In this document: in pieces, positions 9,179-11,558 of the stretch
How the letters are laid out: each line of letters opens with the position of its first letter
How positions within the stretch are numbered: the first letter of the stretch is position 1
Source of the DNA: an uncultured Traorella sp.
Lineage (GTDB): Bacteria > Bacillota_I > Bacilli_A > Erysipelotrichales > Erysipelotrichaceae
DNA length: 52,793 bases
Direction: 5' to 3'
Assembly (NCBI RefSeq): GCF_944327115.1
Contig: NZ_CALVGS010000047.1
Location: forward strand, 1-52,793
Made by a program: the position numbers and the translations under genes
Notes under the pieces: model-generated
The model's input: only the letters and a program-made list of their open reading frames with translations
Database searches by the model: none
Told to the model about the DNA's origin: nothing

Positions 9179-9730
9179 TTATTTATTCTCTCTTATGATC
9201 CTGCATGGATTGCCCGCAGCTATCACATTAGCCGGTATATTTTTGGTGACGACACTTCCGGCACCGATAATCGTATTATCACCAATTGTGATACCCGGAA
9301 GGATCGTACAATGTCCGCCGATCCAGACATTTCTGCCAATCGTCACCGGTTTTCCAAACTCTACATCCTGTTCCCTTTCTTTCGCATCTAAAGCATGTGC
9401 TGCGGTATAAATATGCGTACCGGGACCGATCAGCGTATGTTCACCTATTTTGATCGGACATACATCTAACAGTACACAGCCATAATTCATCATTACATTT
9501 TTTCCTAAATAAATGTTATAGCCATAATCACAGAAAAAAGGTGGTTTGATCCAAAAATTACCTTCTGTATGCAATAGCTTTCTCATCCGTCTTGATCGCA
9601 TATTGATTTCGTTCAAGGCTTTTTTATTATAACTACTACAAATGCGATTGGCCTTAAAACGTTCAAGAACTAATTGGGGATCAGCCGCATTATAGATTTC
9701 ACCACGTATCATCTTTTCTTTTTCACTCAT
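9179..9730 (-). CDS. Maltose/galactoside-type O-acetyltransferase
   Basis: 183 residues, the usual size of Maa/LacA/NodL enzymes, from ATG 9730 with GGAGAAGATATT upstream. The N-terminal maltose-acetyltransferase helix region ([18 protein letters not shown]) is followed by left-handed beta-helix hexapeptide repeats ([40 protein letters not shown]) with the catalytic histidine in TAAHALD (about residue 112). It transfers acetyl from acetyl-CoA to a sugar hydroxyl. An in-frame extension back to 9841 runs through a hairpin and the inverted repeat of the adjacent RNA element and is not counted. Confidence 0.9.
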
Positions 9731-9780
9731 AATATCTTCTCCTTTTGGCATCTCTATTATATACGATAAAATATCAAAAT

Positions 9781-9805
9781 GCTCATGTAAATCATCTACA
9801 TGAGC
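9781..9805 (-). terminator. Terminator-like hairpin ending the structured RNA
   Basis: 9-bp perfect arms GCTCATGTA and TACATGAGC. On the minus strand they are followed by ATTTTGATATTTT. The hairpin lies between the RNA element and the acetyltransferase gene. Confidence 0.55.
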
Positions 9806-9822
9806 AAATGAATGATCCTTGA

Positions 9823-9843
9823 TCTTTGACAAATGTATCATTG
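9823..9843. repeat. 21-bp inverted repeat, left arm
   Basis: Exact reverse complement of 10354-10374. It reads TCTTTGACAAATG then TATCATTG on the plus strand. It closes the structured block 9844-10353. Confidence 0.9.
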
Positions 9844-10353
9844 GTGTTCCTCACACTAAGCATTCGGTTAAGGGCGTTATTCTGTCAAGAGAACTGTGAT
9901 TCCTTGCAAGTGAGCGACACTTACGCGATCACAGCTAAGCGTTAGCTTCAAAGCTCTGAGTCCTCCTGGGACCAACGTTCAGGGACATAGGATTTCCATA
10001 TGCTGATATAACCTTTGTGCAGCTTTCCCCTACTTGTACGATCACCCTGACTTATAGAACATTACTGTTCATCAACTGCAAAGGGCTTATTTGGTATCTA
10101 TAGCTAGTCACTGGCTACCACCCCATTGACATTACTACCCTACACGTACACTGTACTGTCGGCGATGACCCCGTCTGGATGATCTACATTACGATAATAA
10201 CCGAACCCCACTTCAGACTTGTTTTTGAGTGTTATCACTCATTCAAAGACAGCATTACTGATGCCTCAACGATACCCTTTAAGAGCCTCCCCTTAAACTC
10301 ATCGATTCAAGCCTGATCCTTATAGGAGTGTCCCTCCTATCTTTCATAAGGTT

Positions 10354-10374
10354 CAATGATACATTTGTCAAAGA
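10354..10374. repeat. 21-bp inverted repeat, right arm
   Basis: Exact reverse complement of 9823-9843. Sequence identity ends at both edges of the 21 bp. Confidence 0.9.
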
Positions 10375-10400
10375 CCAGCAGGATTTCCTCCTGCATGATT

Positions 10401-10406
10401 ATTATA
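10401..10406 (-). promoter_or_regulatory. -10 element for the structured RNA
   Basis: A perfect TATAAT on the minus strand, placing transcription start near 10394, right at the base of the first hairpin. The matching -35 at 10424-10429 (TTTTAT) is weak. Confidence 0.4.
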
Positions 10407-10452
10407 ATTAAATTTCAATAAAAATAAAATGGTCAGATTCTTTTTATTAATG

Positions 10453-10517
10453 ACCCCTTTTTTTATTATATTTAAAGCACTTATTTATTATTTTATATTG
10501 AAATATAACCCCTTTTT
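10453..10517. repeat. Direct repeat ACCCCTTTTT in the WYL gene promoter
   Basis: Copies start at 10453 and 10508, 55 bp apart (about five helical turns). The second copy lies in the -35/-10 spacer. Candidate autoregulatory operator pair for the RHH-WYL protein. Confidence 0.4.
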
Positions 10518-10526
10518 AGGTATATT
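10498..10526 (+). promoter_or_regulatory. Promoter of the RHH-WYL gene (leaderless)
   Basis: TTGAAA (10498-10503), 17-bp spacer, TATATT (10521-10526), then only six bases before the ATG at 10533. There is no Shine-Dalgarno sequence at usable distance, so the transcript should start at or next to the start codon. Confidence 0.6.
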
Positions 10527-10532
10527 ATTACT

Positions 10533-11558
10533 ATGAGCGAAAAAATAAAAATATATCTTACAAATGAATTAAAAGAAACATTATTAAAGGATGCTTCAAA
10601 TTTCGGATTTTTAAAATCAAACGGTGATGTGAATATCAATAATTTCATCAATACGTTGATTGTCAATTACTATGAAGAACACCAGAATAAACAAAAATAT
10701 TTATATGCTTCGATTCAGAATATCCTCAGCCATTCCTCTCTTTCTGTTGAAGAAAGAAATCGTCTTTCAGAAGAAATTACTCATGAGCTTCAAACTATTA
10801 AAAATAATCAAGGATCAAAAAAAGCATCTGCTTCTATATCCTTCAAACCAACAAAAAACTCTGAAACTGCTGTTGAGTATATTGAAAGAGTCTTATTACA
10901 GAATCATAGCCTATCTTCTTATTATGCTTCCATGTTTGCCTCTTATGCATCTTTACCGCAAGATAAAAGAGAACTGATTCTTTTCAAAGATATCAATGAC
11001 ATCATTCAGAAAGTTATTGAAAGTAAACAAACGATCATCTTCACCATGAATCAGGGAAATGATAAATATATGGCAGCTCCTTATAAGATTGCCGCTTCAT
11101 ATGAGGAATTGCATAACTATGTACTGGCTACCATCCTCAGCTATAATGATGCTTTGACACAGCAGCCTTCAACCTTCCGGCTTTCTAAGATCGAACGTCT
11201 TAGTATCCATGAACAAAAATATGCGTTTCATGAAGAAGAAATAAATGTCTATACCAGAGCTTTACGTAATGGTGTCCAATTCATTTATCATTCTAATGAC
11301 CAGCCTATCAAGGTACATCTCAATGAACCTTATGGAAAAAGAATGTTTGAACGCTTTTATGTTCATCGCCCTCTCCCTACTAAAATCGAAGGAAATGATT
11401 ATTATTTTGACTGTTCCTATAACCAGCTGATCAATTATTTTGCACGCTTTGGAAGCAATGCAGTCATTGAATACCCAACAGATCTTGCCCAAAGAATGGC
11501 AAAGCTTCATTTCTGGGCATACAAAAAATATAATTATAAGCCTGAGCATCAGGAATAA
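10533..11558 (+). CDS. RHH-WYL domain transcriptional regulator
   Basis: 341 residues. The N-terminal 50 residues (IKIYLTNELKETLLKDASNF, then NNFINTLIVNYYEE) have the strand-helix-helix pattern of ribbon-helix-helix DNA-binding proteins. From about residue 180 the protein fits a WYL ligand-sensing domain: MAAPYKIAASYEELHNYVLA, then FRLSKIERLSI, and a C-terminal WCX-like part (FARFGSNAVIEYPTDLAQRM). WYL regulators sense ligands or nucleic acids and often control defence or mobile genes. RHH-WYL fusions are less common than HTH-WYL. It stands alone, next to the structured RNA element, on the opposite strand to its neighbours. What it regulates, apart perhaps from itself, cannot be read from the sequence. 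Confidence 0.7.
   Translation: MSEKIKIYLTNELKETLLKDASNFGFLKSNGDVNINNFINTLIVNYYEEHQNKQKYLYASIQNILSHSSLSVEERNRLSEEITHELQTIKNNQGSKKASASISFKPTKNSETAVEYIERVLLQNHSLSSYYASMFASYASLPQDKRELILFKDINDIIQKVIESKQTIIFTMNQGNDKYMAAPYKIAASYEELHNYVLATILSYNDALTQQPSTFRLSKIERLSIHEQKYAFHEEEINVYTRALRNGVQFIYHSNDQPIKVHLNEPYGKRMFERFYVHRPLPTKIEGNDYYFDCSYNQLINYFARFGSNAVIEYPTDLAQRMAKLHFWAYKKYNYKPEHQE

Follow-up and report, generated by a model that had tools for sequence, protein, structure and literature searches.

ROOL RNAs (Rfam family RF03087) form hollow RNA-only cages that exceed the ribosome in size; octameric structures of these cages have been solved, the env-120 nanocage is among the known members, the RNAs are often found in phages and prophages, and as of May 2025 neither a function nor a protein partner had been reported (PMC12286853). 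The ROOL lncRNA of L. salivarius is abundant and non-essential, and the HTH regulator gene downstream of it constitutes a separate transcription unit (PMC5643018). Regulators of the WYL type are represented by RspWYL1, which binds ssRNA with high affinity and prefers it over dsDNA through two arginines (PMC6547453), while the bacterial RNA-repair operon rsr-yrlBA-rtcBA is preceded by a divergent gene for RtcR, a sigma-54 regulator with a CARF domain (PMC7790460).

Here we analyse a contig of an uncultured Traorella sp. (NZ_CALVGS010000047.1; the window, by which we mean the whole stretch of 52,793 nucleotides), in which a chromosomal ROOL gene is, in our estimation, quite likely paired with its own divergent transcription regulator of the RHH-WYL-WCX (WYL1-type) class. 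Its RNA resembles known ROOLs (RF03087, the L. salivarius lncRNA, env-120) in the full-length covariance-model match and the P1 closing stem. It differs from the described copies (PMC12286853, PMC5643018) in its chromosomal location without a tRNA island or phage genes, surroundings that many ROOLs have but that do not define them, and further in its divergent RHH-WYL-WCX gene and a promoter shared with RNA-repair operons, a context absent from the literature that we searched.

A full-length ROOL RNA on the minus strand

An earlier note, made from the letters of the DNA, had described the 800-bp gap between the acetyltransferase and the WYL gene as devoid of protein, with a large minus-strand RNA at 9781-10406 built on the plan of ROOL, GOLLD or OLE. 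No credible protein-coding ORF crosses this gap; the acetyltransferase ORF enters it via an upstream start only, M at 9730 being the start that aligns with relatives. The RNA itself proved to be a ROOL, with the following features:

9825..10375, minus strand: ROOL RNA (RF03087), model positions 1-574 (cmscan 180.8 bits, E 8.7e-41, cut-off 99.1)
10401..10406, minus strand: TATAAT, the -10 of the ROOL promoter (from sequence; conserved in L005/L128)
10378..10394, minus strand: hairpin where the transcript is expected to begin (fold against shuffles; several other loci have a hairpin at the same place after the -10)
10354..10377, minus strand: 5' arm of closing helix P1 (inverted repeat; covariation across ROOLs)
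9820..9843, minus strand: 3' arm of closing helix P1 (inverted repeat; G-C pair replaced by A-U in the sister species)
9780..9806, minus strand: terminator hairpin, then T-rich tail (z -4.5; stem kept through compensating changes in the sister species)

The listed score comes from a sensitive search; a default search of the window gave 136.8 bits, and both values exceed 99.1 bits, the curated Rfam cut-off for ROOL. No other Rfam family rose above its own cut-off in the window, and GOLLD, OLE and other Rfam classes, the first two of which the earlier note had named for such a search, were rejected as only ROOL reached its threshold. The predicted fold of the 617-nt transcript (-212.5 kcal/mol) is considerably more stable than those of 20 shuffled sequences (-171 +/- 6.6 kcal/mol; z -6.2) and contains many internal helices, of which the note had counted at least six. 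The other parts that it had picked out were recovered as well: the minus-strand TATAAT, the 5' hairpin (-10 kcal/mol, with 2 of 200 shuffles folding as well), the 21-bp closing stem, which extends over 24 nt with 96% complementarity and corresponds to ROOL P1, the terminator-like hairpin with its T-rich tail, and the GNRA loop, which reads GUAA where the Rfam consensus has GUGA. Loop L18 keeps the conserved GUCGCUC. Where the B4 kissing loop would lie, we find the complementary pair UGGUA/UACCA, for UGGCA/UGCCA in the Rfam consensus, with a search pattern that fitted few other ROOLs. By its sequence, the minus-strand RNA is a genuine ROOL, with the full-length architecture closed by P1.

The locus is single-copy and conserved in a second species

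The homologues and covariation that the earlier note had asked for were both found. Across ROOLs, mostly of one bacterial family, the 5' and 3' arms of P1 from the same RNA typically pair with -20 to -51 kcal/mol, compared to a mean of about -10 kcal/mol with the arms of others. Exceptions are a few weak cases and L188, L189, L193 and L194, which are among the most divergent loci and whose RNA ends may also be misplaced. Traorella massiliensis (G001) carries the same RNA at the equivalent position, flanked as in the window by the acetyltransferase and the divergent gene, with compensating base pairs relative to the window in both P1 and the terminator hairpin.

The same note had offered a MITE-like element as a further reading, and a 24-nt terminal inverted repeat around 510 nt is what such an element might look like. 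We reject this explanation, which we regard as hardly credible, because P1 covaries, the locus is orthologous and syntenic in T. massiliensis, and the element is single-copy: no second copy of the inverted repeat exists in the 2.23-Mb genome, and the repeat is the ROOL P1, whose sequence is completely changed in most ROOL relatives with pairing retained.

Since ROOLs often reside in phages and prophages (PMC12286853), the RNA could also be an ordinary prophage-derived relic, silent or decaying in the chromosome, and a score of 180.8 bits is low within the family, in which values of up to 339 occur. However, the 52.8-kb window contains no tRNA genes and no recognisable phage genes, the surroundings being housekeeping and metabolic genes; a second species has kept the RNA together with its promoter and terminator, with compensatory changes; and a scan of IMG/VR viral contigs, which relied on short peptide patterns, returned no homologue of the regulator. 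A relic of this kind is therefore highly improbable. A phage origin was rejected on the last of these results together with a search of phage and plasmid records, which returned nothing similar to this DNA.

The divergent gene encodes a WYL1-type regulator

The gene facing the ROOL is the following:

10533..11558, plus strand: RHH-WYL-WCX regulator gene, 341 aa (homology to WYL1, 6OAW; AlphaFold pLDDT 90.9; Foldseek)

Searched alone, the window's protein had no significant match in Pfam, WCX appearing only weakly, while among 22 members of its family, at E values up to 1, WYL was detected in 20 and WCX in 15. The family profile matched WYL1 of Type VI-D CRISPR (6OAW) with E about 1e-25 to 1e-28. 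The AlphaFold model has the domain order tandem RHH, WYL, C-terminal domain, and Foldseek placed 6OAW first (E 1.4e-15), followed by DriD and PafBC, and also CapW and BrxR, with DriD-ssDNA structures among the matches; the nearest folds after WYL1 thus include WYL transcription activators. To judge from these comparisons, the window's protein is a member of the RHH-WYL-WCX (WYL1-type) regulators.

DriD and PafBC, which bind single-stranded DNA, act as WYL activators in DNA-damage responses, and in both of them, as in CapW and BrxR, the N-terminal DNA-binding part is a (winged) helix-turn-helix. The regulator described here shares the WYL-WCX fold with these DNA-damage or defence regulators, but its N-terminal DNA-binding part is a ribbon-helix-helix. 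With RspWYL1 (6OAW, PMC6547453) it has in common the order of tandem RHH, WYL and C-terminal domain and the profile match (E about 1e-25), but it is not located beside Cas13d, its DNA operator is conserved, and the two RNA-binding arginines of RHH2 align with T/S in its family and with S/S in the window. As the residues that favour RNA in RspWYL1 are thus replaced by small polar ones, DNA binding by the regulator is plausible; an RNA-binding role is possible by analogy, because RspWYL1 prefers ssRNA to dsDNA (PMC6547453).

ROOL and regulator are recurrent partners

An alignment search for homologues of the regulator in named genomes yielded 67 loci; a single-sequence search yielded none. In 13 of the loci examined (the window, L126, L128, L139, L154, L156, L183, L185, L188, L189, L192, L193 and L194) a divergent ROOL lies 110-245 bp from the regulator gene, and the regulators of these loci go down to 23-26% identity to that of the window. 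Within the bacterial family that includes the window, which is the scope of the adjacency rate, 7 of 23 ROOL loci have a divergent regulator no further than about 245 bp away, and in an eighth the two share an operon region. If positions are taken as uniform and common descent is disregarded, seven adjacent cases among about 22 family loci would arise with a probability in the order of 1e-25. The ROOL label, given to the 13 adjacent loci and to L148 (where both lie in one operon region), requires 7 changes on the tree built from 51 regulators, at least five of them forced by supported branches. The other three Traorella genomes possess neither ROOL nor regulator, their best acetyltransferases being about 50% identical or less; in the genus, the two genes are both present or both absent. 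The neighbouring WYL gene is part of the ROOL story, beyond what could be seen from the single stretch of DNA.

The remaining 15 of the 23 ROOL loci in the family have no such regulator within view, some of them lying in tRNA-rich or mobile contexts. Upstream of ROOLs without a WYL partner (L030, L031, L037, L038, L039, L040) we noted a palindrome such as ATTAAACnnnnnGTTTAAT, which suggests another regulator. Other ROOLs stand in or near tRNA clusters (L032 with 22 tRNA genes, L041 with 19); in L041 the gene next to the ROOL, from reading its sequence, resembles a VirB4-type conjugation ATPase. Tandem ROOL copies about 30 nt apart occur in L035/L028 (G040) and L036/L027 (G047).

A common promoter architecture with a two-box operator

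Between the two divergent genes the following elements are found:

10426..10437, minus strand: TCTGAnnATTTT at the -35 position (22/64 loci have it with a GGKGTC box located 15-17 nt upstream; shuffle mean 0.03, maximum 1)
10452..10457, plus strand: predicted operator box 1 (GACCCC), one of a pair 55 bp apart
10507..10512, plus strand: predicted operator box 2 (AACCCC), located within the promoter of the regulator gene; the only such pair in this genome
10498..10526, plus strand: regulator promoter TTGAAA-17-TATATT (10/12 consensus match)

Upstream of the regulator genes, GACCCCT is the most enriched 7-mer (about 47-fold), and pairs of RACCMC boxes 54-56 bp apart occur in 27 of 64 loci, with 0 in 500 shuffles and 0 on the reverse strand. 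Six ROOL loci have a pair at this distance, and L183 and L185 have two boxes that are closer together. No RACCMC boxes were found in the most divergent regulator loci (L188, L189, L193, L194), where either the operator has changed or the link differs, nor in the sequence shown for L126. In the window's own genome, a pattern search for the tight form of the operator retrieved exactly one, at this site.

In the direction of the ROOL or the repair operon, box 1 is followed 15-17 nt on by TCTGAnnATTTT (22/64 loci) and then by the -10; on the minus strand of the window, the order is box (10457-10452), TCTGAnnATTTT (10437-10426), -10 (10406-10401) and hairpin (10394-10378). Repair operons and many ROOLs thus have one promoter architecture in common, composed of two RACCMC boxes, TCTGAnnATTTT and a -10. 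Box 2 (10507-10512), for its part, lies between the -35 and the -10 of the regulator's promoter. The TATATT of this promoter ends 6 nt before the ATG and no ribosome-binding site is present (10521-10535 in the window), as is also the case in L128, so that the regulator mRNA is probably leaderless.

All boxes near the WYL gene also sit at its own promoter, and they might accordingly serve only its autoregulation, the ROOL being a passive neighbour that landed beside them. This is very unlikely. In L048, where 3.6 kb separate the ROOL from the regulator gene, the ROOL has its own promoter with two boxes 55 bp apart and TGAGAATTTT, indicating that the operator goes with the ROOL and not just with the regulator gene; this separate copy is the strongest single observation for the tie between operator and ROOL. 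Moreover, the order and spacing of box, TCTGA and -10 are fixed in the ROOL direction, and the linkage of ROOL and regulator is recurrent.

Relatives of the regulator face RNA-repair operons

Relatives of the regulator usually face RNA-repair operons, with RtcB ligase, Ro60/DUF2828-like proteins and Y-RNA-like arrays: RtcB in 33 of 67 loci, DUF2828/DUF7788 in 21 of 67 and TROVE (Ro60-type) proteins in two. An rtcB gene is found downstream of the ROOL, on the same strand, in L043, L045, L046 and L048. The first three (equal to L154, L192 and L156) have the regulator and then, on the other strand, ROOL and rtcB, with rtcB starting 34 nt after the ROOL in two of them; in L048 (equal to L148), the order is regulator, DUF2828 gene, ROOL, rtcB. 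RtcB was not found in the window's own genome, and the window contains no RtcB or Ro60-type gene; the RNA-repair link therefore comes via relatives rather than from this strain, in which the ROOL must work without RtcB.

The arrangement resembles that of rsr-yrlBA-rtcBA (PMC7790460) in that a divergent ligand-sensing regulator precedes an operon with a noncoding RNA, a Ro-type protein and RtcB. It differs in that the regulator is RHH-WYL-WCX instead of RtcR, that the noncoding RNA is a ROOL in 14 loci, and that the genome of the window lacks RtcB.

The leaders of DUF2828-RtcB operons (L130, L133, L134, L137, L140, L143, L146, L148 and L149) contain tandem RNA modules, 32 in number against a shuffle mean of 0.17, which lie about 380-580 nt upstream of the DUF2828 gene and follow the pattern stem-(1-3 nt)-CAGCAA...stem-TTG. 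Some have a tRNA-like T-arm, Rfam matched only tRNA, and together the modules have the appearance of a Y-RNA-like array that is not annotated. In L134, L137, L143 and L149, between 3 and 10 tRNA genes are arrayed tail-to-tail with the WYL regulator gene. An uncharacterised protein of about 160-186 aa without a Pfam match adjoins the WYL gene in clostridial loci (L171, L136, L145, L150, L158, L160 and L188), often encoded between it and RtcB, and in L188 after the ROOL.

These neighbourhoods also bear on the question of whether the WYL protein could be the protein partner of the ROOL, and not mainly a transcription regulator, binding the RNA as RspWYL1 does and joining or loading the cage. The high affinity of WYL1 for ssRNA (PMC6547453), the profile and fold match to 6OAW and the persistent pairing of the genes would fit such a role; yet the family also accompanies rtcB, DUF2828 and TROVE operons in which a ROOL is missing, many of them sharing the DNA operator, and the T/S (S/S in the window) in place of the RHH2 arginines is the usual DNA-reading kind of residue. 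We therefore regard a protein partner as unlikely.

Discussion

Sequence comparison establishes the regulator gene as a recurrent partner of ROOL, along with the identity of the RNA, the pairing, the operator and the promoter architecture, and a regulatory link between the two is strongly supported. In the mechanism that we propose, the regulator would repress its own gene by binding box 2 inside its promoter, and would also bind box 1, some 57-62 bp ahead of the ROOL start. A sign of nucleic-acid damage, sensed by the WYL/WCX part, would cause the regulator to switch on the ROOL from a promoter with a good -10 and no normal -35. The transcript would start near 10395 with the hairpin, fold with P1 closed and stop at the terminator at 9806-9780, and it presumably forms an octameric cage as other ROOLs do. 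That the regulator activates rather than represses we infer from the geometry only; by analogy with DriD and PafBC, activation of the ROOL upon signal binding is most likely. The ligand, the formation of a cage by this particular ROOL and the role in RNA damage are likewise what we infer.

With these reservations, the ROOL looks like the regulated output of an RNA-damage-type circuit, as its presumed cellular role. It may fill the slot of the Y-RNA-like RNAs in the related RNA-repair operons and act when RNA is damaged, for instance through sequestration or protection of RNA, a proposal that we put forward tentatively. In a wider reading, held with somewhat less than even confidence, the ROOL could be the effector RNA of a bacterial RNA-damage response. 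A regulator of the WYL1 type would detect RNA damage or fragments of nucleic acid and induce ROOL from the promoter type of the RtcB/Ro60/Y-RNA operons, and the cage would replace Y RNAs, so that damaged or vulnerable RNA, tRNA for instance, is handled, shielded or sequestered by it.

The ROOL family and its octameric structures were already known (PMC12286853); what is new is the pairing with a regulator, the operator and the promoter of RNA-repair type. Full-text searches of openly available papers retrieved no literature linking ROOL with WYL or RtcB, and the accessible part of the L. salivarius ROOL paper (PMC5643018) makes no mention of either; priority for the link is not proven.

With the regulator conserved, the operator defined and the linkage to rtcB recurring, ROOL function is given a first genetic handle, and through a start signal and a control gene in common with RNA-repair operons, ROOL gains its first testable link to RNA damage. 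Its inducing signal, regulon and deletion phenotype are now open to testing, and the named strain Traorella massiliensis Marseille-P3110T carries the same locus. If the proposed role is true, the location of phage ROOLs in tRNA islands would be a second face of the same function in RNA damage.
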